Both the position numbers and the translations under genes were made by a program. This document shows, piece by piece, positions 31,312 to 49,666 of a stretch of 64,000 nt of DNA. Source of the stretch: Brasilonema sennae CENA114 (lineage in GTDB: Bacteria; Cyanobacteriota; Cyanobacteriia; Cyanobacteriales; Nostocaceae); contig NZ_CP030118.1 of the NCBI RefSeq assembly GCF_006968745.1, positions 1,810,654 through 1,874,653 of the forward strand. Direction: 5' to 3'. The notes below the pieces were generated by a model. The model made no database searches, was not told the origin of the DNA, and saw nothing but the letters and a program-made list of their open reading frames with translations. Every line of letters starts with the position of its first letter. Within the stretch, counting starts at the first letter, position 1.

Positions 31312-32469
31312 TCAGCATTCTCCATTTGTCTTACTAATTTGCTTTGCCAACCAAAGCCGGAAGTGGGAATGGTAGAAGCTGTAACGGGTTTCTTTACCGA
31401 TGCGGTGCTGCTGTAGAAACTCAAGCCAATTTTCAAGAATTTCTTCTACATCATATTCATCTTCGGCTATTGCCTGACTAATCCCTTTTGCTGAAATTTC
31501 TCCAGTTTCCGCACAAGTGAGGACACTCAGCACTTTCAAAACCAAATCAGATAAACCCTCACTTTTCATTTTCTGCCAATGCTGCTGGTAATATGCCTCT
31601 AAACCTGGGGGAATGCAATCAAATTGGTAGGGTTGGGAGTCAAAATCCTCAGCGATCGCATTCAAAGTATGGTGCAGGTACATAAAATTATTTTCGCTTG
31701 CCGTGGTGAGGCGAGAAACGAATTTTGATCTGTTTTCCAACTCCTCCTCTGTGAGGGGAGATGAGGTCTCTTTATTAGGGAAGAGGTAATGGTTTGCTTG
31801 AATATACGCTTGCACATCTTCGCGGTTTTCTTCTGGATACTCCGATAAATCAAGTATTTGTGAAGGTGCTTCTATTAACAAACCAGATTTTTCTCTTTTG
31901 AAGGGACGGCGAGTGAGAAGAAAATAGACTCTATCCGGCAGATATCTGGGAAGATAAAACAGATTTGTACCTGGGGGTTGGCTGTTAGGGTCAATCGCGT
32001 CTAAGGCATCAATAGCGATTATCAGCCGTTGTGGTGGTTCTAGGCGATCGCTGATTTTTTGCAGCAGGAGTGAGAGAAACCAACTTCCCTGTGTGGCGTT
32101 GTCGGGTAAAACATCCACGTCTGTAGAGGATGAAGAATATTGTGCGCCTACGTCCGGGTAATGATGAATTAATTGAGTGCAGATGTTTCTGAGAAATTCC
32201 TCAGCCCTACTTTTACCGACGATTTGGGCATTGTAATAAATAACGTGGTAATTTTCCGTCACGTACTTGGCAACTATACCACTTTTACCGCTACCAGGAA
32301 CACCAACAATGGTGAAGTAACCGCGCTTGTGACGGTGGAGAAATTCGGTGATGGCGGTGAAGATAAATTCACGACCGATAAAATTTTGGCTTTTTTCGAG
32401 AATGATTTGTTGAAACTCGGTTGGGTAGGAGGTGGAATTGATGAGGGTTTGGGAAGGTGGGGTTTTCAT
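31312..32469 (-). CDS. STAND-like P-loop NTPase without HTH
   Basis: A 385-residue NTPase. NFIGREFIFTAITEFL opens the domain, Walker A GVPGSGKSG is at residues 56-64, and Walker B LIIAIDALDAID at ~149-160. YFLLTRRPFKRE fits the sensor position, where STAND/NACHT proteins have an Arg. ASENNFMYLHHTLNAI and a C-terminal YSFYHSHFRLWL match the NTPase encoded at 34870-36246 almost motif for motif, so the two are paralogues; this copy lacks the N-terminal HTH. It overlaps the WD40 gene by 4 nt (ATGA) and is the last gene of the operon. It probably works with the upstream proteins in a signalling or conflict complex. Confidence 0.8.
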   Translation of the reverse strand: MKTPPSQTLINSTSYPTEFQQIILEKSQNFIGREFIFTAITEFLHRHKRGYFTIVGVPGSGKSGIVAKYVTENYHVIYYNAQIVGKSRAEEFLRNICTQLIHHYPDVGAQYSSSSTDVDVLPDNATQGSWFLSLLLQKISDRLEPPQRLIIAIDALDAIDPNSQPPGTNLFYLPRYLPDRVYFLLTRRPFKREKSGLLIEAPSQILDLSEYPEENREDVQAYIQANHYLFPNKETSSPLTEEELENRSKFVSRLTTASENNFMYLHHTLNAIAEDFDSQPYQFDCIPPGLEAYYQQHWQKMKSEGLSDLVLKVLSVLTCAETGEISAKGISQAIAEDEYDVEEILENWLEFLQQHRIGKETRYSFYHSHFRLWLAKQISKTNGEC

Positions 32470-34877
32470 GGTTTCGCCTCAATGCCTTTTAGGCGGAGGA
32501 AATGCAAGCGTCCGGATTCTTCACCTGCTACGATTGTTACGCCATCAGATGCAACAGCGCAGCATTTGATTTCACTTTCTCCTGTGAAAGAGGCAATTAT
32601 TTCTCCAGATTCCAGATTCCAAACTTGGAGAGTTTTGTCAAGTGATGTAGAAACGACCTGTTTGCCACATGGTGTAACTGTTACAGTACTTATCGATTTA
32701 TTATGACCTCTAAAATTGAAAATTTCTTTTCTATTTTCCAAATCCCAAACTTTGATAGTTTTATCATCAGAACCAGAAATTATCCATTTATCATCAGGTG
32801 TGACAGCCAGAGTATTTACCGAAGCGCTATGACCAGTAAGAGTGAAACATTCCTTCTCAGTTTCTAGATTCCAAACTTTGAGAGTTTTGTCCTCCGAGGC
32901 AGAAACCAAGTACTTACCATTTAAGGTGATGGCTACAGCAGTTACCGACTCACTATGACCTCTAAGAGTAAAGATTTGTTTTTTATTTTTAATATTCCAA
33001 ATTTTTATACTTTTGTCTTTACAACCAGTAACTATTCTTTTTCCGTCTGTAGTTACTGTTAAAGATATTACTTCACTACTCTCTATGAAAAGTAGAATTA
33101 TTTTTCCTATTAAATATAAAAATAAACCTACCAAACTTAACGTAAAGTAATGATGGAATAGCATGTATAAAAAAATACTTAAAAAAGTTTCATCTATAAA
33201 TTTTAAGAAGACAAATAATTTTACTAAAATCAAGGAAAACACAACATCAAATCTTCTAAATAAGGTTTTCCTAAAAAGAGGTTTTTGTGATTGTGTTAGA
33301 TCGATAACGTTAAGGTTTTTGTCCTCAGAATAGGTAATTAAGCTATTTCCATCCGTGGTTAAGGTAATAGCTTTAATTGCACTATTTTTGGATAAAAGGT
33401 ATGACTGTTTTCCGTCTAAATTCCATAATTTGAGTGTACCGTCAAGTGAACCAGAAATTACGTTTTTACCATCTCTAGTCACAGTAACTGCATTCACCGA
33501 GTTATCATGATTCTTGAATGTAAACTTTTCTTCCCCAAACTGCAAATACCAGACCTTGAGTGTACCGTCAAATGAACCAGAAATCACGTATTTGCTATCA
33601 GTACTTACAGTGACTGCATTCACCGAGTAACTATGACCATTAAGGGTAAACTTTTCTTTCCCAGACTGCAAATCCCAGACTTTGAGTGTTTTATCACTGG
33701 AAGCAGAAATTACGTATTTGTTATCACTAGTGACGGTGACTGCATTCACTGAGTAACTATGACTATTAAGGGTAAACTTTTCTTCCCCAGACTGCAAATC
33801 CCAGACTTTGAGTGTTTTGTCACTGGAAGCAGAAATCACGTATTTGTTATCACTAGTGATGGTGACTGCATTGACCGAGTCAAAATAACCACTGGTAGTG
33901 AACTTTTCTTCCCCAGACTCTAAATTCCAGACTTTGAGTATACCGAATCTGGAACCGTAACTGGAACCGAAAATCAAGTATTTGCCATCACTTGTGACGG
34001 CGACTGCTTTAACCGATAAATTCTGACTGCTGAGGGTAAATTTTTCTTTACCAGACTGCAAATCCCAGATCTTGAGTGTTTTGTCAGTGGAACCAGAAAT
34101 CACGTATTTGCCACGCAGTGTAACTGCAATGGCATTTACAGAGTCACTATGACCGCTAAGGGTAAATTTTTCTTTACCAGACTGCAAATCCCAGACTTTG
34201 AGTGTTTTGTCACTGGAAGCAGAAATCACGTATTGACAATCTGGTGTGACGGCGACTGCATCCACCGACCCTACATGACCACTCAAGGTAAACTTTTTTT
34301 TCCCAGACTGCAAATCCCAGACTTTGAGTGTTTTGTCACTGGAAGCAGAAATCACGTATTTGCAATCTGGTGTGACGGCGACTGCATTAACCGAGTGACT
34401 ATGACCGGTGAGGGTGCGAACTAACGCGCCACCAGGAGGAGTTAAGCTAGCTGTCAGGGGACGTAACCAAGTGATTTTGGTTTGCGATATTTGTTGCAGC
34501 AATCCTTGAATTTCTGGTGCATCAAAGTGCAGCAAACGCCCTGACAATTGCCCTCCTAGTTGCTTTGTATCTTCATTTAAAATATGTGCTGAGAGTCGCA
34601 ACGCCCCTTGAATTAATCTCAGCGCTTTAACAGTTTGGGCATCGTATTCTGAGTAAGTTAAGAATTCTGTATCATCAATCAAATCATAATCTTCAATCAG
34701 CGCCTGCACACCAAATTTAGGATGATTAATTTTTGCTTCTATAAAGTCAAAATCAGTCAGCAGACGGCAGAGTTTCTTAACTTGACCACCTTCTAACCAC
34801 AAACGTGGAACTTCACTCAAGAAAAGTTCTCTTTCTTCCGATGACTTCTCAGCTAACCAGGCGCGAAGATTACTCAT
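32466..34877 (-). CDS. WD40 protein with helical N-terminus and internal membrane segments
   Basis: An 803-residue protein. I use the ATG at 34877 (MSNLRAWLAEKS), preceded by AAGGA and overlapping the previous stop as ATGAGTAA. Residues 1-150 are helical and resemble the region that follows the NTPase in APAF1-like STAND proteins. Fourteen WD40 repeats follow, enough for two seven-bladed propellers, many ending KVWDLQSGKEKF. Between repeats 9 and 10 (~residues 540-600) sits a strongly hydrophobic stretch with FSLILVKLFVFLKFI and YFTLSLVGLFLYLIGKIILL, two or three membrane helices. Repeats 1-8 are very alike, suggesting recent duplication. The likely role is ligand sensing at the membrane for the partner NTPases. 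Confidence 0.85.
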   Translation of the reverse strand: MSNLRAWLAEKSSEERELFLSEVPRLWLEGGQVKKLCRLLTDFDFIEAKINHPKFGVQALIEDYDLIDDTEFLTYSEYDAQTVKALRLIQGALRLSAHILNEDTKQLGGQLSGRLLHFDAPEIQGLLQQISQTKITWLRPLTASLTPPGGALVRTLTGHSHSVNAVAVTPDCKYVISASSDKTLKVWDLQSGKKKFTLSGHVGSVDAVAVTPDCQYVISASSDKTLKVWDLQSGKEKFTLSGHSDSVNAIAVTLRGKYVISGSTDKTLKIWDLQSGKEKFTLSSQNLSVKAVAVTSDGKYLIFGSSYGSRFGILKVWNLESGEEKFTTSGYFDSVNAVTITSDNKYVISASSDKTLKVWDLQSGEEKFTLNSHSYSVNAVTVTSDNKYVISASSDKTLKVWDLQSGKEKFTLNGHSYSVNAVTVSTDSKYVISGSFDGTLKVWYLQFGEEKFTFKNHDNSVNAVTVTRDGKNVISGSLDGTLKLWNLDGKQSYLLSKNSAIKAITLTTDGNSLITYSEDKNLNVIDLTQSQKPLFRKTLFRRFDVVFSLILVKLFVFLKFIDETFLSIFLYMLFHHYFTLSLVGLFLYLIGKIILLFIESSEVISLTVTTDGKRIVTGCKDKSIKIWNIKNKKQIFTLRGHSESVTAVAITLNGKYLVSASEDKTLKVWNLETEKECFTLTGHSASVNTLAVTPDDKWIISGSDDKTIKVWDLENRKEIFNFRGHNKSISTVTVTPCGKQVVSTSLDKTLQVWNLESGEIIASFTGESEIKCCAVASDGVTIVAGEESGRLHFLRLKGIEAKP

Positions 34878-36246
34878 AGCCAAAAAGTCCTTCTGTCATA
34901 TTATCGGCAACTTCAGCGCTGATATCTGGTAAATTCACCCCCGCCGCTTGCACAATATCCTGACGATGCAAAAAATCTCGGAAACTTTCGTGATAAAACC
35001 TGTAGCGCGGTGGTTGATAATTTTCCTGTTTCTGCAAAAACTGCGCCCAGCGATCAAGAACTTCCTGCACAGTCAACTCATTCTGCTTAGAATATTTGGC
35101 AACCACTGCACGGGAAGCCGCGCTACGTAAAGCACACATCACATAAATAATCTTGATTTTATTTTTCGGTAAAGGCTTGGTTGTCATGCCCATGATTTCC
35201 CAGTGGCTGTAATAATATCCTTCTAAACCTACAGGTAATTCATCCAGAGGTTTATTTTCGTAAAAACCATTAGCCATTGCTGGTAATACACAGCGCAAAT
35301 ACATAAAATTATTTTCGCTTTTTGTGGCGACTTCTTCCACAAAGTCAGGATTAGAGAGATTTTGCTTTTGAATCCACTGACTCAAGCCCTGTTGATATTC
35401 TTTATCATTGAGCAATAGCCAAATATATTCTTTCACATCTTGGCTACTTCTATCGGCGTAGTCTCTTAAGTCCAATTCCTTAGTAGAAACGCTGGGTGAA
35501 ACATTCAACCTTTTCTCATTTTGGTTATACGGTCTTCTTGTCAGCAGAAAGTAAACCCTTTCTGGAAGAATAGTAGGTAAATATAAAAGATTTCCGGTCG
35601 ATTCTTGGTCAACTTCGTCGAGTGCATCAACAACAATTATCAGGCGTTCACCAACACCAATTCTTTCACTAGCTTTGATCAGCAAAGTTGATAAATCAGC
35701 ATCTGCTGCATCCTGCAATTGGTAACGACTCATCAATTGTTCGCGAATTTTTTTCAGGAACAATTCCGGGCGATTCATGCCCTCAGCGCGAATATTGAAA
35801 AAGCAAATCGCTGCTGGGTTGTCTAATACGTACTTGGCGGCGATCGCACTTTTCCCCATTCCTGCATCACCCACGACAGTAAAGTAGCCGTTGGGGTTTT
35901 TGCTGAAAAACTCTTCAATAGCATCAAAGACAAATTTTCTACCACTAAATGACTCTGTTTTATCTTTTATTAATCGTTCAAATTCTGGCGGTATTTGCTG
36001 CGGATTCCAATCTTTAGGATCAACGATATCAGTTGGTTTAATATCTAAAACTTTGGCTATACTTTCAACTTGCCTTCTTTCAACTCCATTCAGGTAGTCT
36101 TTTGTACCTAATAAACGTTTAATTGTGTCCTGAGAAACTTTTGCTTTTTCTGCAAGCTTCTCTATAGTCAAACCCGCTTCTTTGTAAGCATTTCTGAGTC
36201 TAATTTTGCCTTCTTCGCTAGATTGAACCTTATCCGATTGCAGCAT
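34870..36246 (-). CDS. HTH-containing STAND-like NTPase
   Basis: A 458-residue protein. Residues ~15-75 form an XRE/MerR-like HTH (AGLTIEKLAEKAKVSQDTIK, then VLDIKPTDIV). The NTPase domain begins FSGRKFVFDAIEEFF, with Walker A GDAGMGKSA at 126-134 and Walker B LIIVVDALDEVD at ~202-213. Sensor-like LLTRRPYNQNE follows, then SENNFMYLRCVLPAM and YRFYHESFRDFL. In many cyanobacteria HTH, NTPase and WD40 are one chain; here the WD40 part is the next gene, overlapping by 8 nt. The HTH may bind DNA, or serve as an adaptor as in other cyanobacterial STAND proteins. Confidence 0.85.
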   Translation of the reverse strand: MLQSDKVQSSEEGKIRLRNAYKEAGLTIEKLAEKAKVSQDTIKRLLGTKDYLNGVERRQVESIAKVLDIKPTDIVDPKDWNPQQIPPEFERLIKDKTESFSGRKFVFDAIEEFFSKNPNGYFTVVGDAGMGKSAIAAKYVLDNPAAICFFNIRAEGMNRPELFLKKIREQLMSRYQLQDAADADLSTLLIKASERIGVGERLIIVVDALDEVDQESTGNLLYLPTILPERVYFLLTRRPYNQNEKRLNVSPSVSTKELDLRDYADRSSQDVKEYIWLLLNDKEYQQGLSQWIQKQNLSNPDFVEEVATKSENNFMYLRCVLPAMANGFYENKPLDELPVGLEGYYYSHWEIMGMTTKPLPKNKIKIIYVMCALRSAASRAVVAKYSKQNELTVQEVLDRWAQFLQKQENYQPPRYRFYHESFRDFLHRQDIVQAAGVNLPDISAEVADNMTEGLFGYE

Positions 36247-39963: not shown

Positions 39964-41796
39964 CTAAAACCGCGTTATTTGATTAGCAACGACTTCAACC
40001 TGTGTACCCGCTGGCAAATACCAAACGTTACTTTTTTGAATCATCTCGTTGATTGCTTGTTGGTTGCGCTGGTTCAGTTGGGGTACCAGGGCATTCATAC
40101 CGCCTTCTAAAACTGCAGCAGGGATGTTTCTTTCTTGTTTAGTTTCGCTACAGCTTTGTGGGAAGGATACTGGGTCACCATTTCGATTAGTGTAGATAGT
40201 AGAACCACAGTTTGGATTAATTCTTGTCTCAGGACGGTTAAGTACCTCTCCTATTTTCCCAGCACCTCCCAAACCGAAGATAAATGTATCCATACCTGAG
40301 ATCTTTCCAGATTTATCAGGATATTTCTTGGCAAGTAAAGGTCTTCCGCCAGGTGCACGAACTTTCATTGCACTTTGACTTAGGCGAGTTTCTGTGAGAT
40401 TACTTTTATTTTGAGAAATAACTGAAACGACTGTTAGGTTAAACATTCCGGTTTCAGAAACTTGATCAAGTTGAGCTAATAATTCAGTATTTGCAGGTAG
40501 TGCGATCGCCCCATCTATAGACTTCAATGGTTGCTGCAGACGCACGACAAATTGACTATCATTTTTATTATTATTGTTATTACTATTACTACTATAATTA
40601 CTATTACTTCCTATTCTATTTGCTTCCCCAAATATAGCCGTTGCTAACACAGCTTTGGCACTAGTACCCACTGCAATAGATTTACCAGTATACTGAGTAG
40701 TCTGGTTTGTTGTTTCTGGTGTCTGTTGAGGATTTGCTGTTGTATTTGTCCGATTTGGAACAGGTAAAGTTTGTAGATTATCTCTAGCCCTGGAATTTAA
40801 TTCAGAACCCAAAGTAGATGGAGGGGAATTTGCTACTCTTGGTAGGTTTGGTGTTGGAGTGGAAGTGGGTGTTGGAGTGGGAGTGGCTGTTGGGGTGGGA
40901 GTGGGTATTGATAAAGAGAAGGGAATTTGTGCTAAATCCGATGGCTTTAATCCTGGAGTTGATAACTCAAAGGATGGAGATATTGAAGGTTTGGCTGTTG
41001 GTTGAGGAGGCTGAGGACGCACAGTAGGCTGAGTAGGTTGAGGAGGTTGAGTATAAGTTGGTTTTGGCTGCTGCGCTACAACACGTTGAGGAACTCTGAC
41101 AATTCGTTCGACAACACGAGGTACGTAAACAGTCTGCGCTGGTGTCGGTACTCTTTGGATCACCACGCGCGTGACAGTTTGTGGTCTAATTCTTGGTTGT
41201 GCTGGAGTTGGTTTTGGCTGAGTTTGAGTAGGTCTTACAGTTTTTAACTGAAGCTGTGCTAATTTTACAGCTTTTGCTTGTTCAGCTAATGCTAGTTTTG
41301 TTTTTAAGATCTCAATTTCTTGTTGCGGTTTTAATTGCTCTATTTTGTTCGATTCATTCTCTTTACGAGTTATTTGTGGAAAATTCTTCGGCGTTTGTTT
41401 GTTTGTTCCACTCATAAGTTGAGTGAGAAACGCACCTGCTACCAAAGCCACACTTAGGGTAGCAGCACCCACCACACCTACCTTGGCAAAAGGGTTAGAT
41501 GACAATGCTTGTTTTGTTTTCTGTGACGATGGATGAGAAGGTGGTGGTTCGTCAGGATTAGTACTTGGAGTCTCTGAAGGACTGCTTTCTGGATGAGATG
41601 GAGGAAACTGTTCTTCTAAACCAACTAAATTAGCCATCCGTTGATGCCAATCTGATGGTTGTACTTCATGCGAAGGATGATTGTTAGATTCAGGCTGTGA
41701 ATTATTATGGTTGTTATGATTATTATGACCGTTATGATTTTTATGATTGTTATTGTTAGAATTATTAGAATTATGAGAGTTCGGTAAGTTGTTCAT
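39964..41796 (-). CDS. VirB10/TrbI-like type IV secretion protein
   Basis: A 610-residue protein; the ATG at 41796 (MNNLPNSHN) follows AAAGGAAAG, 17 bp after the previous stop. Residues 1-35 are an Asn/His run. After an acidic region, one membrane helix (VGVVGAATLSVALVAGAFL) at ~110 is followed by a coiled coil and a long Pro/Gln/Thr-rich periplasmic spacer with PTPTPTATPTPTPTS. The C-terminal ~250 residues have the VirB10 beta-barrel pattern: SAKAVLATAIFGE, GAIALPANTELLAQL, MKVRAPGGRPLLAKKY and a hydrophobic segment for the outer-membrane channel. It would span the envelope in the secretion complex and is the last gene of the cluster. Confidence 0.75.
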   Translation of the reverse strand: MNNLPNSHNSNNSNNNNHKNHNGHNNHNNHNNSQPESNNHPSHEVQPSDWHQRMANLVGLEEQFPPSHPESSPSETPSTNPDEPPPSHPSSQKTKQALSSNPFAKVGVVGAATLSVALVAGAFLTQLMSGTNKQTPKNFPQITRKENESNKIEQLKPQQEIEILKTKLALAEQAKAVKLAQLQLKTVRPTQTQPKPTPAQPRIRPQTVTRVVIQRVPTPAQTVYVPRVVERIVRVPQRVVAQQPKPTYTQPPQPTQPTVRPQPPQPTAKPSISPSFELSTPGLKPSDLAQIPFSLSIPTPTPTATPTPTPTSTPTPNLPRVANSPPSTLGSELNSRARDNLQTLPVPNRTNTTANPQQTPETTNQTTQYTGKSIAVGTSAKAVLATAIFGEANRIGSNSNYSSNSNNNNNKNDSQFVVRLQQPLKSIDGAIALPANTELLAQLDQVSETGMFNLTVVSVISQNKSNLTETRLSQSAMKVRAPGGRPLLAKKYPDKSGKISGMDTFIFGLGGAGKIGEVLNRPETRINPNCGSTIYTNRNGDPVSFPQSCSETKQERNIPAAVLEGGMNALVPQLNQRNQQAINEMIQKSNVWYLPAGTQVEVVANQITRF

Positions 41797-41813
41797 TGGT
41801 GTCTTTCCTTTCG

Positions 41814-42491
41814 CTAGGGGCATTTTTTTTGTTGAATGTCACAAATATTCGCAATTTCTAACCTCGCTTCATTAAGACGGTATATTGCTGAGTATAAAGG
41901 ATTTTCTACATTCGGGATAGAAATGGCTTGTGTATCTAACGCCCGAATCAATATTTTCTTATTAAAAGGAATTGCCTCCCCGTCTTTGCTATTATAACCC
42001 GCGAAAATCAAGCGATTCGCAACGATTTCTAATTGCCATTGACCATCTGCTATTTTTTCGGGTTGAGAAATTCTGCGAATCAATAATAAGCTTTCTGCAT
42101 TTCCACCAGGATTGGCTAAAACACCTTTAGGAATTCCTTGTGTCGTTTCCACTTCAAATTTTCGCCTCATATCACCAGATAAAAGTTCGGAAGTTGCTTG
42201 CCAAACTATTTGCGGTGGTTGTTTGTCTGACCAAGTAAACATCATGGTCATTGTTTCACCAACAAAACGCCGAATCGTTTCTGGATTGCGTTCTAAATTT
42301 TCTTGGGAACCTATTGTTATGGCACGACCATCAACAAGTTGCACTAAACTTTGTGGTAATTGACCACTCAGCCTTTTGAGCATAGACTGGTGAAACATCA
42401 GCAACAATATAGTTAACACATTCAACCCAAATGTTGCGACAACGAACACAGGCAGAAAATTATTTTTCTTATTGTTTTGATTAAATAGCAT
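41814..42491 (-). CDS. VirB8-like membrane protein, copy 2
   Basis: A 225-residue protein with one N-terminal membrane helix (LPVFVVATFGLNVLTILLL) and a periplasmic domain. LVQLVDGRAITIG and ERNPETIRRFVGETMTMMF near residues 50-85 closely match the neighbouring gene (42505-43329). The size and layout, one helix plus an NTF2-like domain, fit VirB8, the assembly scaffold of type IV secretion. It is 13 bp after its paralogue and 17 bp before the VirB10-like start. The VirB8 assignment rests on layout and context, not a recognised signature. Confidence 0.55.
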   Translation of the reverse strand: MLFNQNNKKNNFLPVFVVATFGLNVLTILLLMFHQSMLKRLSGQLPQSLVQLVDGRAITIGSQENLERNPETIRRFVGETMTMMFTWSDKQPPQIVWQATSELLSGDMRRKFEVETTQGIPKGVLANPGGNAESLLLIRRISQPEKIADGQWQLEIVANRLIFAGYNSKDGEAIPFNKKILIRALDTQAISIPNVENPLYSAIYRLNEARLEIANICDIQQKKCP

Positions 42492-42504
42492 TATCTTGTT
42501 CTAC

Positions 42505-43329
42505 CTATCGTGTAAAGCTACCAGAATTAAGAATATCTCCACAGCGTTGAGACTGACTTTTTGACGAAGAATCATAACCATTTGTTAGACAGAAATCACT
42601 GACTTCGTAAATTTCTAACTTTTGGGCGCGGACACTATAGACAGCTTTCTGCAATGGAGTCAGACCGTTTGATAGAGGATGTCCATAAGAATCTACAGTT
42701 CTTACTAAAAAATCCTTATTAAAAGGAGTTAATAACTTTTTATTGTCAGTACGTCTCACCTGCACAATATTAGCAACCATACCAACTCGCCATTGACCTG
42801 GTGCGATTTTTTCAGGAGGATAAACCCGTTGGATAACTAACTGTCCTGTTAAAGCTTGCTTATTGTTTTGAGAAAAAATTTCTAGCGGTGTCATATCCGC
42901 AATTTGTGCCAAAAAACCTCCACGAAAATCTTCGGAAAGTGCAAAACTCGCTACCCAACTACTGGTCGAAACTTTTTTTGTCAAACCTTGTAAAGTCTTA
43001 ACAGGTATTCCAGCATCAGTTTTAGGGTTAGTTGCTTCTTCAACAGTTGCTGCTGGAAGTGTTCCAGACCAGTTGAACGTAGCCGCCATTGTTTTAGCAA
43101 CAAATTGGCGAATGACTTCCGGTTCTCGTTCGAGAGTGTCAGTTTGAGAAACTACTTTACCATCAACAAGTTGGACAAACGTCAGAGGTTTTTTATGAAT
43201 GAGACCGTAGATACGTAAACCTTCAAATAATAAGAAAATTGCTGCCAATAAATGTAAACTGAAGGTAAAAATAGCAAATAGCGTTAAAAGATTGACAGAG
43301 GACTTCTTTTCTTGTAATAACTTGGTCAT
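42505..43329 (-). CDS. VirB8-like membrane protein, copy 1
   Basis: A 274-residue protein with one N-terminal helix ([21 protein letters not shown]) and a periplasmic domain. FVQLVDGKVVSQT and EREPEVIRQFVAKTMAATF align with the following paralogue. It has an extra ~40-residue insert (DAGIPVKTLQGLTKKVSTSS) and a C-terminal Cys-containing tail. Together the two copies could form a heteromeric inner-membrane scaffold. The gene lies 221 bp downstream of the VirB6-like gene with a palindromic repeat in between. Confidence 0.55.
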   Translation of the reverse strand: MTKLLQEKKSSVNLLTLFAIFTFSLHLLAAIFLLFEGLRIYGLIHKKPLTFVQLVDGKVVSQTDTLEREPEVIRQFVAKTMAATFNWSGTLPAATVEEATNPKTDAGIPVKTLQGLTKKVSTSSWVASFALSEDFRGGFLAQIADMTPLEIFSQNNKQALTGQLVIQRVYPPEKIAPGQWRVGMVANIVQVRRTDNKKLLTPFNKDFLVRTVDSYGHPLSNGLTPLQKAVYSVRAQKLEIYEVSDFCLTNGYDSSSKSQSQRCGDILNSGSFTR

Positions 43330-43447
43330 AATGCTAGTTACCTAGTGGTTATTTCATTCTTCTAGCCCCATAGCCCACCCGGAAATGAATTTCCCGGCTC
43401 ATAATTCAAGTCCCAATACGGTTCGATTAGCTTGTTTATCTGAAGGG

Positions 43448-43532
43448 AGATCCCCCCAACCCCCCTTACAAAGGGGGGCTCTTTTACCTATTTATCCCCT
43501 TTTTAAGGGGGTCGCCGCAAGCGGGGGGATCT
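43448..43532. repeat. CCCCCC/GGGGGG palindromic repeat in the secretion cluster
   Basis: AGATCCCCCC at the left is mirrored by GGGGGGATCT at the right. Inside lie CCCCCCTTACAAAGGGGGG and CCCCTTTTTAAGGGG hairpins. It is a common dispersed repeat type in Nostocales, inserted between the VirB6-like and VirB8-like genes. Confidence 0.75.
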
Positions 43533-43550
43533 TATCCGAACCGAACTTTT

Positions 43551-44600
43551 CTAAACTTTTTCCTGTACCCATACAGCAGTATTGCTGATGCCGTTGAAAA
43601 CGGCAAATCCTCCAGCAGCAGCCAAAGCTAAAGACATAATCGGTGCGAGAACTCCTAACAGAATCAAAAACCACATTAAGTCTGGATCAGCATTGAGATT
43701 TTGCGCAGGACCATTCACAATCACTGCGGCTGATATTACAGCAACAATATTGAAAGAAATCTTGGCAATACCCATAGACAGTAATCCCGTAAGCCATGCA
43801 AAAATTGGTTTACCAGCCACTGGTAACAAAGACCCTCCTACTGCTACAGGTCCTAAAGCTGCTATCAGTAACATTGCCACTTCTATTAAGTTTTGAAAAG
43901 CAGACTGTAAGGAAACTAAAAGATTTTTGATAATTGTTTGAGTTGTGGAACCCAACAGAGAGTTAAAACTGAATTCTGCTACATTACCAGGGGTGACCAC
44001 TATCTGACTAACTTTCAGATCAAGTCTGTCTATCCAAGGTTGGAGACCGTATGTATTTCTGTACTGTTGCAAGAGGACATCTATTTTTTCCTTTGCTTTA
44101 ATCAAACAATTAATTTGTTGTTGACCTGTCAGAGACTGACAAGGACGCAATAAACCACCAACAACTTCTTCAGCAACAGTCATATTCAGTGCTTGCTGAT
44201 AAGTTTGATTGACATCAGCTGCTTCTACAACTTGCTGATTGATTGTGTTGAGAAAATCTCTTAATCCCAGTGTCAAATTAGACAGTGCAGTGCCATTGCC
44301 CGGATTAGCGAGTAAGATGACTACTATAAAAGGCCAAATCAAAGCCGATAGAGGACGAGAATATTCATTATTCAGGACATCTCTAATCCATTGCGCCATG
44401 AAGAAAAGCAAAGTTCCTACGGCAAAGAAAATACCTAAATTGGTGAGTGCACCGTATAAGTTATTATTCGTGTTATTTTGTAATAAATCAATCCATTGTT
44501 TATCCCAACCCTCAGCAATAGTTTGTGCAGTCACGACACCATTTGTTAAAACATTACTGGTGTCTAGTTGAGAAAAAAGATAGAGATGAGAAAGCCACAT
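43551..44600 (-). CDS. VirB6/TrbL-like polytopic membrane protein
   Basis: A 349-residue protein with about six membrane helices: LGIFFAVGTLLFFMAQWI and ALIWPFIVVILLANPG in the first third, and VAMLLIAALGPVAVGGSLL, IAKISFNIVAVISAAVIV and MWFLILLGVLAPIMSLALAA in the last. A periplasmic-sized loop of ~120 residues with two Cys (PCQSLTGQQQINCL) lies between. This is the usual VirB6/TrbL arrangement for the inner-membrane channel. It ends in a short polar tail, NGISNTAVWVQEKV. Confidence 0.65.
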   Translation of the reverse strand: MWLSHLYLFSQLDTSNVLTNGVVTAQTIAEGWDKQWIDLLQNNTNNNLYGALTNLGIFFAVGTLLFFMAQWIRDVLNNEYSRPLSALIWPFIVVILLANPGNGTALSNLTLGLRDFLNTINQQVVEAADVNQTYQQALNMTVAEEVVGGLLRPCQSLTGQQQINCLIKAKEKIDVLLQQYRNTYGLQPWIDRLDLKVSQIVVTPGNVAEFSFNSLLGSTTQTIIKNLLVSLQSAFQNLIEVAMLLIAALGPVAVGGSLLPVAGKPIFAWLTGLLSMGIAKISFNIVAVISAAVIVNGPAQNLNADPDLMWFLILLGVLAPIMSLALAAAGGFAVFNGISNTAVWVQEKV

Positions 44601-44630
44601 TTTTTCACCATCACTTGAGCTTGATTTATT

Positions 44631-45572
44631 CTATGGTGTTGTCAAGGGGGAAGGGATATTCTCTGAGGAAGGAGGATTAGTTTCTGTAGGAGAAGGATTA
44701 GTTTCTGAAGCAGGAGGATTACTTTCTGAACCAAGATTAGTTTGTAAAGGAAGAGGATTAGCGCTTTTTCTAAACAAATCTGTTTGAGAAGTGACTCGCA
44801 AAAGTCGTGCGACTTCTGCTGATGTACCCACTCTTCTGGCACGATTGGCCTCATTCATTTGCTGGGAGATATCTGCTAAATTCAAGTTGGAATATTGGAT
44901 GTCATTACGCAGTTGGATTGTGTTTCCTAGGGTTTCACCTGTTATCTTGGTTTGTTCTCTTTGAATATTGATATTTTGAAATTCTGATTCTGCTATACTC
45001 CTCATGATCGGAACTAGCTGTGGTACCGCTGCTGTTAGAGCAGCCATACCCTCCAGACCGGAAGAAGGCATATCCGGTGGTAGTTGTTGGTACTGATTCC
45101 GAGCTGTATTAGCAGCTCTATTGCTCTGCTGAATAGCTTTCTCAGTATCCTGTAACTTACCTTTTAACCGAGTTTGTCCATCTCTCCCAAAAACACCTTC
45201 AACTGCACCACGGGTAATATATCGATTAATTTCACTACTCACTTCTTTACCATATACTGCTGGATTATTCTCAAATTTATCCGAAATAGAGTACTGAGTA
45301 ATCTGGTCGCGAGTATACTGACTAGCATAATTAGGATTAGGAAGATTGAGATCACCTGATGAACTTGTGATTGCTGATTGTGTCTGAAGTTCTACAGGGT
45401 TTAAAGTCTCGGAAATATTGTTTGTAATATAATTTGTAAAATCAGTTGTGTACAATTGAAAATCAGTCCAAACGGTTCCCAATTCTGCTATGGCTGGTAA
45501 GGTTCCTAAAAATGCCACGGCAAAAAAAGAAGTCATGATGATTTGAGGTTTGGCAATTTTTTTGAGCATCAT
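44631..45572 (-). CDS. Secreted helical protein in VirB5 position
   Basis: A 313-residue protein with a signal peptide (IIMTSFFAVAFLGTLPAIA) and a mostly helical mature part with AIQQSNRAANTARNQYQQL and NLADISQQMNEANRARR. Its position between VirB6-like and VirB4 genes, size and helical character fit VirB5/TrbJ, a minor pilus-tip protein. The C-terminus is a repetitive Ser/Asn/Pro/Thr tail (SETNPSPTETNPPSS) encoded by tandem 18-21 bp units. The assignment is contextual. Confidence 0.5.
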   Translation of the reverse strand: MMLKKIAKPQIIMTSFFAVAFLGTLPAIAELGTVWTDFQLYTTDFTNYITNNISETLNPVELQTQSAITSSSGDLNLPNPNYASQYTRDQITQYSISDKFENNPAVYGKEVSSEINRYITRGAVEGVFGRDGQTRLKGKLQDTEKAIQQSNRAANTARNQYQQLPPDMPSSGLEGMAALTAAVPQLVPIMRSIAESEFQNINIQREQTKITGETLGNTIQLRNDIQYSNLNLADISQQMNEANRARRVGTSAEVARLLRVTSQTDLFRKSANPLPLQTNLGSESNPPASETNPSPTETNPPSSENIPSPLTTP

Positions 45573-45640
45573 ATTAGCTTCGGTTTAATGACTTGCTATT
45601 CTCTTGGTGGATGTTTGAGAAGTGTTTTTCTGTCATTATG

Positions 45641-46010
45641 AGTGAAACACATTGGTGTGAATTTAAGTTCAAAGGTTTATACCGCGTTGGTTTTACCTCA
45701 CCCTGCCCTGTCGGGCATCCCTCTCCTTATCAAGGAGAGGGAAAGATTTTAGCGCAGTCGGCAGAGTGTGAAACACAGTGGTGTGAATTTAAGGTTAAAA
45801 GGTTTATGCCGCGTTGGTTTTACCTCACCCTGCCCTGTCGGGCATCCCTCTCCGCGATTTCGGAGAGGGAAAGATTTTAGCGCAGTCGGCAGAGTGTGGA
45901 ACACAGTGGTGTGAATTTAAGGTTAAAAGGTTTATGCCGCGTTGGTTTTACCTCACCCTGCCCTGTCGGGCATCCCTCTGCGCGATTTCGGAGAGGGAAA
46001 GATTTTAGCG
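45641..46010. repeat. Three tandem ~126-bp repeats upstream of the VirB5-position gene
   Basis: The unit contains GTGTGAATTTAAGG, GCGTTGGTTTTACC, TCACCCTGCCCTGTCGGGCA and a hairpin of the CCCTCTCC...GGAGAGGG type. Units start near 45641, 45766 and 45893 (period 126 then 128). The second and third are nearly identical and share a different hairpin loop (GCGATTTC) from the first (TTATCAA). The array ends just 6 bp after the VirB4 stop, so it is transcribed with the cluster. The core also occurs at 4510-4603. Confidence 0.9.
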
Positions 46011-46015
46011 TCACA

Positions 46016-48763
46016 TCAATAACCACGAATTGAGCCGATCAATTGACGCGCAAAATGAGAAACAGCCTCAAATTTATCTCCATATCGTTGCATTGCTTGA
46101 TTACGTGCAGCTTGTTCATCAGGATTATTCGCCACGACTGCTAACTGTTCGTAGCCTGGGTAATAACGACAGTAAGTATAAACGCCATTATCATCAAGCA
46201 ACCATTGACTATAAATGTCTTCTTTACGAGGGAAAAAACCTTCTGACGCATTGCGCGCAATAATTTCGCGAGGATATTTCAAGATTTCTACGAAACTATC
46301 AACAGCAACGGGTTGAATCCGACCAATTAATCTTGTTGATAAGTTTTGCAGAATCTTAGAAGAAGCTTTAGATTTGGCGATTGTATCAGGATCTTGTCCT
46401 GATAAAATAACTCTTACCCCTGCTTTTGCTCCGTTCGCGCAAAGTCTACCTACCAAATCAGAAATTTGATCGAATTCAAACAGAATTGGTGCTTCATCGA
46501 TAAAGAATATGGAGGCGGGACTACTCAAAGCACGTCGCAGTGCTGCGGAATAAGCACTTAAAGACAGCAATGCTGCATCTTCGTTATCTGATAAGTTTCT
46601 CAATGCAAAAACTAACAATTGAGCATCAGTTGGAAAACTCGAAGGTGCAGAAACAGCTTGTCCGACTCGACTTTCCACCCAGAAGCGCAAACGGAGATTG
46701 ATAACCTCGAGTGCATCATCAATTCTGCCACCTATACTATGCAGGTTAAGATGTTCCCGCGAACAGAAGATGAGAAAATCTTTTAAAGTTGGAGTTTTTT
46801 GCCAAGCTTCAGTCCCAAATCCTTCTAATATCGCTGCATGATAGCGCTTTTGAATTCCTTCGTCGGCGAAGAAGGTGTTTAAGGCTAAATTCAGAAGCGA
46901 TCGCACTGTTTGCGCCAGCAGTTGATTACCAGTGGATGAACCCAGTACCATTGTCATCAACGCCGACTCAAGAAATGCGGCGTAGTCTTGAAAGCGTTCT
47001 CGCTGTTCTTCTTCATTCAAGAATCGCAAGTCTGGCTGTTCAAACAAATTATTGGATTGTTTGGAAATATCAAAATAAGCTCCTTTCTCTCCAACAAATT
47101 CTGTATAGTCGGTGAAGGTAGATGTACCATCTGGTTTCGGAAAGTCCAAGGCTACCACAGGCATATTGTGTGCCAAAGCCTGGGTTAAAATCCCTGACAC
47201 CAAGACTGATTTACCAGCACGAGTTGTGGCAAATAACGCTAAATTTTTGTGCTGCTTAAATAAATCTAGATGAAGTGGTGTACCTCCTTCGTCAGCAATT
47301 AATTCAAAACCTGTGCGATCGCCCGCCCTCGTTGTCACCAAAGGTATCAATCCCCAAACTTCGTTTGTGAGATACAATTGACGACGGTTGAAGGGTTTGG
47401 CTAACAGTATGTCCCAAACAATTGGCAGTGTTTGCAACCAAATTCTCCAAGCATATTCCGTTTCTCGAATAACTTGTGCTGGACGTTGAAAACAGTTTTC
47501 TATATACCTGCACGCTTCATCCAATTTGTCTCGGCTTTGGCGATGAACGAGAATAGCAATCCCTGTATAAATTGGCAACGCTCCTTCATAAATTTGTTCT
47601 TGCGCCGCCACAGATTTTTTCAATTTTAATTGTGCGCCAACATCAATTGTATTACCTTTTTCTTGTGCTACTTTTGACGTTACATTCGACTGCTTCAGCA
47701 CCCGTTGTAATGTCGTTTTGACTATTGCCGGGTTCGCTGCAGTTAACTCACAAAAAATCTCCGTATCTACAATTGCATCCCTAGCAACCAGTTCCCATAA
47801 ATAACGCAGTTGCGATGCTTTATTCAGCCATCCTCCCGGTTTTTCTAGAAACGTCATCACACCAACATAGCGATTTTTAATATTTACCCATTCACGGTCA
47901 GCAACAGGTACATTTGACTCCATCAATAATGTGGTGCTATGGATATTTTCTAATAGTAATTTGCTGCTAGATAAATCAGAATAAATTTCTTCCTGAAGTC
48001 CCTTTTCATTTAAAACTAATAGTTGGGGAATATCTATCGGTTCAGTACTATTAAATCGTCGCCAAGCTTCCTGCCATAAATCTTTCGCAGTCAAGGCTTT
48101 AATATCCAAACCCCATTTATTAGATAAAATCTGTTCCCAACGCCGAAATCCTTCAGTATAAGCATTAGAAATCAAAGTTTCTAATCGTTGGTTTTCTCTT
48201 TCTGCTGCTTCACCTTTAAATGATAACCACCAAGACTCAGCCCTTGCCAAAAACTTCTCAATCCAATCATCAGCAGCAGAAGCATCTGGTTCTACAGTAT
48301 ATGTTACATACACCCGCAGAAATTTTGGTTTTCGGATACCAGCGCGAGTCAGTTGTTGTGTTCTGGCTCTTTCAGAGGTCAGCAAGTACTGTATACTAGG
48401 CGATTGAGTTTTCTGTACAAGAGATGCAAGCTCTTGTTGGCGTTTGTTATCTGTAGAAAAAGACCCCAAATGAAAAGTCACTCTTTCTTCTGGTGGAAGG
48501 TCTTTTAAACCAGCTTCTATATTGTTACAAATTGTATCTATTTGCTCTGTTCTTAAAGTGGTATGAATGCCTCTGCATTCAAATCCAAAAACAAAGCAAA
48601 ATCTATCTCTTTGGCTACCTTTGGTCAAAATGTAAGCACCAACATCTCTGCCATCAACTGCAATACGCAGCATGGTGGCAAGATTTAAAGCATCTTCAAA
48701 AGGTGTTAGTCTATTTTCTTGACCTGCGATGCCTACGCTTTGTTTTCCTATTTTTTCTTTCAT
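46016..48763 (-). CDS. virB4: VirB4-like type IV secretion ATPase
   Basis: A 915-residue ATPase that powers assembly and export. The N-terminal ~480 residues are the VirB4 interaction domain. Walker A is FATTRAGKSVLVSGIL near residue 510, VVALDFPKPDG follows, and Walker B is SIFFIDEAPILFE near residue 750. Further RecA-fold motifs include GVRVILSGQDPDTI. The start lies 53 nt inside the preceding gene, which is characteristic of tight coupling. VirB4 is the most diagnostic gene of the cluster and anchors the interpretation of its neighbours. Confidence 0.85.
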   Translation of the reverse strand: MKEKIGKQSVGIAGQENRLTPFEDALNLATMLRIAVDGRDVGAYILTKGSQRDRFCFVFGFECRGIHTTLRTEQIDTICNNIEAGLKDLPPEERVTFHLGSFSTDNKRQQELASLVQKTQSPSIQYLLTSERARTQQLTRAGIRKPKFLRVYVTYTVEPDASAADDWIEKFLARAESWWLSFKGEAAERENQRLETLISNAYTEGFRRWEQILSNKWGLDIKALTAKDLWQEAWRRFNSTEPIDIPQLLVLNEKGLQEEIYSDLSSSKLLLENIHSTTLLMESNVPVADREWVNIKNRYVGVMTFLEKPGGWLNKASQLRYLWELVARDAIVDTEIFCELTAANPAIVKTTLQRVLKQSNVTSKVAQEKGNTIDVGAQLKLKKSVAAQEQIYEGALPIYTGIAILVHRQSRDKLDEACRYIENCFQRPAQVIRETEYAWRIWLQTLPIVWDILLAKPFNRRQLYLTNEVWGLIPLVTTRAGDRTGFELIADEGGTPLHLDLFKQHKNLALFATTRAGKSVLVSGILTQALAHNMPVVALDFPKPDGTSTFTDYTEFVGEKGAYFDISKQSNNLFEQPDLRFLNEEEQRERFQDYAAFLESALMTMVLGSSTGNQLLAQTVRSLLNLALNTFFADEGIQKRYHAAILEGFGTEAWQKTPTLKDFLIFCSREHLNLHSIGGRIDDALEVINLRLRFWVESRVGQAVSAPSSFPTDAQLLVFALRNLSDNEDAALLSLSAYSAALRRALSSPASIFFIDEAPILFEFDQISDLVGRLCANGAKAGVRVILSGQDPDTIAKSKASSKILQNLSTRLIGRIQPVAVDSFVEILKYPREIIARNASEGFFPRKEDIYSQWLLDDNGVYTYCRYYPGYEQLAVVANNPDEQAARNQAMQRYGDKFEAVSHFARQLIGSIRGY

Positions 48764-49088
48764 AGTGGAATTCTAGAAAACTTTTATAACGAGCAGTACC
48801 TCTTGTCCAGGTCGGAACACCGATAAATTTGCTCAAAAATCGCCAACTTCTACCACCTGTTAGTATCCACCAAGTTGCTATTCCCCACCCTGCAATTAAA
48901 ACTGTCCACAACCATTTTTGCCATTCATCTGAGAAGACACCTCCAAAGATGCCATTCACAATCATGTAGGAAACTAGAGCTATAATTGTCCAAGGAAAAA
49001 TTTGGTCAGCAGGAATTGGTCCTAAGGAAGGTTGGGTTCCCAAAATTTGGTTGACAGGTCGAAATTCTCTATCTCGCTCATCAGCCAT
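48711..49088 (-). CDS. Small membrane protein in VirB3 position
   Basis: A 125-residue protein with two hydrophobic helices (FPWTIIALVSYMIVNGIFGG and WLWTVLIAGWGIATWWIL) and a very basic C-terminus (RKNRKTKRRHRRSRK). VirB3 proteins are ~100 residues with two helices and are usually encoded directly before, or fused to, VirB4. Here the gene overlaps virB4 by 53 nt. The call rests on size, topology and position. Confidence 0.5.
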   Translation of the reverse strand: MADERDREFRPVNQILGTQPSLGPIPADQIFPWTIIALVSYMIVNGIFGGVFSDEWQKWLWTVLIAGWGIATWWILTGGRSWRFLSKFIGVPTWTRGTARYKSFLEFHYERKNRKTKRRHRRSRK

Positions 49089-49102
49089 AACAAATTCCTG
49101 AC

Positions 49103-49666
49103 TTAATTATTATTACCAACGATAAAGCTCGTCAACACATCAGCAACAGTCACAGCAATAACTACCAACAACGGTGTTCTGGCGACGACTTGCCAATCTT
49201 CGTCTTTGCGAACGGCGTTAATCACACCAATCAGAGCAACAGCAATGTAGAGTAAGTAAAGTGCTCTTAAAACATTAAACACCAAACTCACTGCGGCTGC
49301 AGCACCGGTTTGTTGAGAACCTTGGGTTAAATTGTTTTTGAAAAATGTTTCTGCTTTTCCGAAAAATTGAGCTGCTGCTGGATCACTAAAGTAGTCTATC
49401 CAAAAGAAACTGAGTATTGCTGAAAATACCAGAGTTTGAAGTAATATGAGCCAAGGTTTCGGTAGAGCGATCGCTTGTCCTATTTGCTGAATAAATGCTA
49501 CTGCGATAGTGCCCACGAGCAAGCAAAGTAGCAGACTCGGGCTTTGAGAGCAAATCACACTTAAAAAGACAGCAAAAGCAAGCAACAAGGGCACAGATGC
49601 CAACACATGAGTGAATCGGTGTTTGAGTTGATACGGTACTTTTAGCTGAGTAGATCTTAGAGGCAT
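49103..49666 (-). CDS. Multi-helix membrane protein heading the secretion cluster
   Basis: A 187-residue protein with four to six hydrophobic helices: VLASVPLLLAFAVFLSVI, SLLLCLLVGTIAVAFI, PWLILLQTLVFSAILSFFW, ALYLLYIAVALIGVINA and TPLLVVIAVTVADVLTSFI. The last two helices with a short basic loop (RKDEDWQ) look like a VirB2/TrbC pilin hairpin, but the chain is longer than a normal pilin. It starts the cluster, 15 bp before the VirB3-position gene. VirB2-like is my best guess. Confidence 0.45.
   Translation of the reverse strand: MPLRSTQLKVPYQLKHRFTHVLASVPLLLAFAVFLSVICSQSPSLLLCLLVGTIAVAFIQQIGQAIALPKPWLILLQTLVFSAILSFFWIDYFSDPAAAQFFGKAETFFKNNLTQGSQQTGAAAAVSLVFNVLRALYLLYIAVALIGVINAVRKDEDWQVVARTPLLVVIAVTVADVLTSFIVGNNN

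Follow-up and report, generated by a model that had tools for sequence, protein, structure and literature searches.

The chromosome of Brasilonema sennae CENA114 contains a cassette of eight genes which is very probably a domesticated type IV secretion system (T4SS) of the MPF_C family, with coupling protein and relaxase lost, VirB11 absent, and VirB8 doubled. The cassette lies in a window of 64,000 nucleotides (contig NZ_CP030118.1, positions 1,810,654 to 1,874,653; positions below are those of the window) and occupies positions 49666–39964 of the minus strand as eight co-directional open reading frames (ORFs) for VirB2, VirB3, VirB4, VirB5-like, VirB6-like, VirB8a, VirB8b, and VirB10 proteins. 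All eight were present, with the same ends as in an earlier reading of the DNA made without database searches (the sequence-only reading). Our overall explanation, to which we assign a probability of about 0.45, is that a T4SS was domesticated, does not conjugate, and most likely acts as a contact or adhesion pilus with a variable tip. No description of the chromosomal cassette was found in the open-access literature. MOBless cyanobacterial systems were noted in 2011 with no function given (PMC3158045), and earlier assignments placed non-conjugative T4SSs in MPF_I and MPF_T only (PMC4793230).

The VirB4 ATPase (915 amino acids, 46016–48763) and the VirB10-like protein (619 amino acids, 39964–41823) were the two calls that the sequence-only reading regarded as convincing, and both stood. 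VirB4 matched TIGR00929 with 47 bits (E 1e-12, under the curated cut-off), and its Walker A motif and Walker B stretch were invariant among 28 relatives. A search with PF03135 was empty even for the VirB4 genes of plasmids, so this model is too narrow here; a PADLOC match of VirB4 to mad8 reflects the shared ATPase fold and was set aside. The VirB10-like protein has a single transmembrane segment (residues 111–137), a proline-rich linker, and a C-terminal TrbI domain. Its own match to TrbI (PF03743; 23 bits, E 7e-5, under the curated cut-off) was weak, but 18 of the 20 aligned VirB10 relatives matched this domain (best E 1e-14), which upholds the assignment. VirB8a (274 amino acids, 42505–43329) was identified by its predicted fold. 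The AlphaFold2 model had a predicted local distance difference test score (pLDDT) of 79, and the top PDB matches found by Foldseek, with probability of about 1.0, were Bartonella VirB8, Legionella IcmL and DotI, H. pylori CagV, TrwG, and TraE. VirB8b (225 amino acids, 41814–42491) is its paralogue according to the tree and the match to plasmid VirB8.

For the six remaining proteins, the sequence-only reading had proposed VirB2, VirB3, VirB5, VirB6, and VirB8 from size, topology, and order. The VirB8 part of this proposal gained the support of the fold, now for two paralogues, while VirB5 and VirB6 continue to be called from topology, position, and plasmid homology. Domain searches with the six proteins gave nothing useful, and weak Pfam matches to NapE, DUF4633, and RPA14 were discarded. 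PDB profile searches with alignments of VirB2, VirB3, VirB4, VirB5, VirB6, VirB8, and VirB10 returned no T4SS match; the FabG and keratin matches of the VirB5-like profile were weak and ascribed to chance. The VirB2-like pilin precursor (187 amino acids, 49103–49666), recognized by motif pattern and position, had no match in Pfam or PDB searches. According to the alignment and transmembrane prediction, it consists of a hydrophobic, variable leader of about 97 residues followed by a mature part whose roughly 89 residues are conserved and include two transmembrane segments. The cleavage-like motif PAxAQFF (AxA/QFF) and the C-terminal 90 or so residues are also kept in homologues from conjugative plasmids. 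VirB3, VirB5-like, and VirB6-like were assigned by position, topology, and homology to plasmid genes, with no match to a solved structure, and are to be read as putative. The VirB3-like protein (125 amino acids, 48711–49088), whose gene overlaps the start of virB4, is 41–45% identical to the product of the gene immediately preceding virB4 in conjugative plasmids. The VirB5-like protein (313 amino acids, 44631–45572) follows VirB4, has a signal peptide-like N terminus, and is hypervariable in its center (residues ~140–210). The VirB6-like polytopic membrane protein (349 amino acids, about six predicted transmembrane segments, 43551–44600) gave no Pfam or PDB match and is 33–35% identical to its counterpart at the VirB6 position of conjugative plasmids. 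The genes are tightly spaced (14 bp between VirB2 and VirB3, 13 bp between VirB8a and VirB8b) or overlap (VirB3/VirB4 by 53 bp, VirB8b/VirB10 by 10 bp), with two larger gaps of 443 and 221 bp. The virB4–virB5 gap contains a 128-bp tandem repeat (45642–46010; 2.9 copies, 95% matches; Tandem Repeats Finder).

A protein search of plasmids matched 114 records, of which the listed matches and the named genera were all cyanobacterial, and VirB4 was 52–54% identical to VirB4 of conjugative plasmids. Each of the two plasmids of the Brasilonema genome encodes VirB2, VirB3, VirB4, VirB5, VirB6, VirB8, VirB10, VirB9, a secreted protein X, and VirD4; plasmid A of Trichormus variabilis has a matching arrangement followed by a relaxase. 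The cyanobacterial conjugation type has been named MPF_C (PMC8600333; PMC3158045), and, judged by these homologies, the relatives of the cassette are MPF_C-type conjugation systems. The MPF_C plasmids (reference pCC7120alpha, alr7206/alr7213; also pBOCT1 and T. variabilis plasmid A) share with the cassette homologous VirB2, VirB3, VirB4, VirB5, VirB6, VirB8, and VirB10 in a common order. They differ in having a single VirB8 together with VirB9, protein X, and VirD4, to which T. variabilis adds a relaxase, whereas the cassette has two VirB8 genes and lacks VirD4, X, and the relaxase. Loci outside the family with VirB4 of about 62% identity were considered as cassettes and rejected; those which could be read far enough proved to be full systems of the conjugative type, having one VirB8 along with VirB9, X, and VirD4. 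Protein X itself, secreted and unannotated, lies between VirB9 and VirD4 in the conjugative systems of cyanobacteria (L065:26475-28028, L066:22937-24136, L067:22689-24539). In pMIC7113.01, it has a C-terminal extension of lysozyme/transglycosylase-like appearance and may be a substitute for VirB1.

Both VirB8a and VirB8b match the single VirB8 of the conjugative plasmids. In the VirB8 tree, VirB8a and VirB8b fall into distinct clades, with the single VirB8 proteins of conjugative systems grouped in a clade of their own (support 0.99). Since both the VirB8a and the VirB8b clade include sequences from UBA11371 and the Gloeothece family, the duplication is older than Nostocaceae. Duplicated VirB8 is known from Rickettsia (PMC2653234); as a mark of the cassette lineage, the ancient doubling, read from the tree, is new here. 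Also new is the assignment of a ninth gene, found directly after VirB10 in most relatives, as VirB9. This assignment is supported by the predicted structure: the AlphaFold model (pLDDT 75) had as its six best PDB matches R388 VirB9 and a Dot/Icm core protein (E 5e-6 to 2e-4). VirB9 was detected in 91 of the 112 genomes with the cassette; no match was found in the window or on the Brasilonema chromosome. The nine sampled genomes lacking VirB9 form one split of the cassette tree (support 1.0), which indicates a single loss in the clade of the window. The absence of VirB9 leaves the homology to T4SSs intact, as it is a common core part that is not universal across lineages.

The absence of relaxase, VirD4, and VirB11 from the window, reported by the sequence-only reading, was confirmed and followed up across the whole genome. 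Only two coupling proteins (PF02534) are encoded, both on plasmids (C2 and C3). PF00437 is limited to one tandem pair at 5.52 Mb, 3.6 Mb from the cluster, with sizes fitting pilB/pilT; hence the genome has no VirB11. The relaxase family PF01076 had zero matches genome-wide; PF03432 had two matches somewhere in the genome. No relaxase was found among the ORFs neighboring the cluster and no integrase among the window ORFs scanned or inspected. Both coupling proteins are parts of plasmid systems distinct from the cassette, and the searches revealed no mobilization module tied to the cluster. Across the family, 34 of the 112 genomes with the cassette are entirely devoid of PF02534 coupling proteins, several of them single-contig assemblies (G020, G026, G033, G060, G081, G103, and G117), and 26 of these 34 also lack PF03432 and PF01076 relaxases. 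Retention of the cassette in such genomes means that no coupling protein of the PF02534 family is needed. These findings support the proposal of the sequence-only reading that the machine is not a conjugation system; it probably serves cell contact or secretion, not gene transfer. It is improbable that it acts as a helper in trans, a chromosomal machine serving plasmids which supply the coupling protein and relaxase themselves. The plasmids of this genome do carry two PF02534 proteins, and coupling proteins are somewhat enriched in genomes with the cassette (78/112 vs. 17/33, Fisher p 0.06), but the 34 genomes just described speak against such a role, and plasmids with a coupling protein have their own complete machine.

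Cassette-type VirB4, defined by an identity of 74% or more along most of its length, was found in 112 of 145 Nostocaceae genomes. All eight genes were in identical order in 29 of the 29 Nostocaceae loci examined (one VirB3 ORF, missed by the ORF filter, was located by tblastn), so the cluster is not a chance assembly. In 28 genomes, representing 15 genera, VirB4 lay 10–36 kb from gyrA; in 24 others the two genes shared a contig at a greater distance, and in 52 they were on different contigs. The near-gyrA location is the ancestral chromosomal place of the cassette, and the neighboring genes vary between loci. Among 28 genomes, the concatenated cassette tree shared 9 of 25 splits with the GyrA tree, compared to 0.23 expected by chance, and Mantel correlations for the eight proteins were 0.35–0.58, none of which was reached in 2000 permutations. 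Outside the family, matches of at least 69% were rare in an order-wide sample and comprised four genomes of one family (f5, including the plasmid of Gloeothece) and UBA11371. Plasmid Cy782201 of Gloeothece verrucosa and the three other f5 genomes have cassette-type VirB4 with 71–76% identity, and VirB8 genes are paired in the Gloeothece and G547 loci. Unlike in the cassette, gene blocks in the Gloeothece/f5 relatives (L035, L213, and L214) are permuted or divergently oriented. Calothrix NIES-4105 and PCC 7103 (L092 and L093) have a second, more divergent cassette (VirB4 ~75%) without VirB9, adjoining a 713-aa protein whose start resembles an exopolysaccharide protein of the chain-length-determinant/tyrosine-kinase type.

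All of the genes are under purifying selection. The ratio of nonsynonymous to synonymous divergence (dN/dS) against relatives was 0.05–0.07 for VirB4 and mostly 0.1–0.45 for the others, near the values of lgt and coaD, with VirB5-like as the exception; an outlying value for VirB8b against UFV-L1 arose because the paralogue was matched at the end of a contig. Purifying selection and the invariant Walker motifs indicate that the cassette is not a relic. Decay of an integrated conjugative element would agree with the loss of coupling protein, relaxase, and, in the clade of the window, VirB9, as well as with four stops in virB4 of one relative, G043. With selection acting and gene order intact across the family, such decay is very improbable. 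The G043 copy (G043:C852:434-3172; one TAG and three TAA stops) is likely a pseudogene, and G082, a smaller genome of the same genus, had no cassette VirB4 match.

A third feature new here is the variability of the VirB5-like protein. Compared with its two closest relatives, the window protein is 96–99% identical in the first part, 100% in the last, and 21–22% in the middle, where both dN and dS jump (dS 0.5–0.8 vs. about 0.1 around it); indels make the alignment there uncertain. This jump suggests that the middle was replaced by recombination with divergent alleles. The classes of alleles do not follow species boundaries: one type is common to CT11, B. angustatum, and UFV-L1, and another to the window and B. 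bromeliae, with UFV-L1 being the more distant relative by the flanks of VirB5-like. A comparable dip was found in several other genera (genome pairs G103/G131, G006/G038, and G083/G104) and was absent from the pair G018/G066. Such variability points to a putative role in recognition.

T4SSs without VirD4 are known: Bordetella pertussis Ptl, Brucella VirB, Helicobacter pylori ComB, and Bartonella Trw, the last of which was proposed to form variable adhesive pili with variable VirB2 and VirB5 (PMC12857230). The cassette resembles Trw as a chromosomal VirD4-less T4SS. Its VirB5-like protein varies and its mature VirB2 is conserved, and its pilus is a prediction from the genes. Trw, a system of the MPF_T type, retains VirB11, VirB7, and VirB9, and its variation lies in gene copies. 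Variation in the cassette, unlike that in Trw, is allelic and confined to one gene. With a conserved pilin, a variable VirB5-like protein, and no coupling protein, the Trw pattern is the best fit, and a contact pilus is favored for this reason. In the proposed machine, VirB4 as the sole ATPase, VirB3, VirB6, and the two VirB8s would form an inner-membrane platform. VirB2 would be cut behind its long leader and then polymerise, and VirB10, with VirB9 in most relatives, would extend to the outer membrane. The VirB5-like protein would cap the pilus and contact a variable partner on another cell, a phage, or a surface. The contact function, together with pilus assembly and the tip location of VirB5, is proposed from gene content and has, in our estimate, somewhat less than an even chance of being correct.

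Several points weigh against this picture. The pilus is predicted from gene content, and no structural match supports the calls of VirB5 and VirB6. An ordinary outer-membrane complex as in known systems is impossible without VirB9, which is missing in the clade of the window. VirB11 is usually required in MPF_T systems, a requirement that may differ in MPF_C. The cassette and GyrA trees have 25 conflicting supported split pairs, so inheritance was mostly, not wholly, vertical, with some transfer or hidden paralogy. VirB5-like variability could alternatively stem from escape from phages or from weak structural constraint on a coiled coil.

Among the functions named by the sequence-only reading (effector secretion, DNA uptake, and a pilus), the pilus is favored, export comes next, and DNA uptake is the least likely. 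In two-step export, Sec-exported substrates would be taken up in the periplasm and driven across the outer membrane, as by Bordetella Ptl and for some Brucella VirB effectors, with no need for a coupling protein. The VirD4-less architecture is compatible with this (PMC12857230), VirB9 and VirB10 are kept in most relatives, and, according to a suggestion by Guglielmini et al., MOBless T4SSs, those of cyanobacteria among them, may secrete protein (PMC3158045). We nevertheless consider export rather unlikely, as VirB11 is absent and no conserved candidate substrate gene adjoining the cassette was found in 28 relatives. Ptl is dedicated to a linked substrate. It shares with the cassette the absence of VirD4 but keeps VirB7, VirB9, and VirB10 and has no VirB5, while the cassette retains a varying VirB5-like protein. 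DNA uptake into the periplasm in the manner of H. pylori ComB is quite improbable. The parts are similar (VirB2–4, 6, 8, (9), and 10, no VirD4), and the genome lacks VirB11; however, ComB has no VirB5 and uses an unlinked VirB11 (PMC13395361), whereas the cassette includes a VirB5-like protein. Moreover, according to published accounts, cyanobacteria use type IV pili for competence, and the Brasilonema genome has the pilB/pilT-like tandem pair. Rickettsia rvh is likewise chromosomal, vertically inherited, and has duplicated VirB8 (PMC2653234); it differs in keeping VirD4 and VirB11, lacking VirB5, and having its genes scattered over the genome.

Elsewhere in the window, three adjacent minus-strand genes (31312–36246) encode an AAA/NACHT-like ATPase, an 805-aa WD40-repeat protein, and a protein with a helix-turn-helix and an AAA/NACHT-like part. 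With weak Avs1b and STAND_TPR matches, they are possibly a split STAND/NACHT-WD40 defense or signaling module.

One T4SS that the majority of a large cyanobacterial family retains, independently of PF02534 coupling proteins, makes a clear-cut example of a domesticated conjugation machine, and the clade which lost VirB9 with the rest of the genes under selection is a natural experiment on a minimal T4SS. Judging from the named loci, this GTDB family appears to consist of heterocyst formers. Only tentatively, and with the odds rather against it, do we propose that heterocyst-forming cyanobacteria inherited a dedicated T4SS pilus free of coupling protein, whose VirB5-like tip would swap recognition alleles between species and may serve specific recognition of cells or surfaces.

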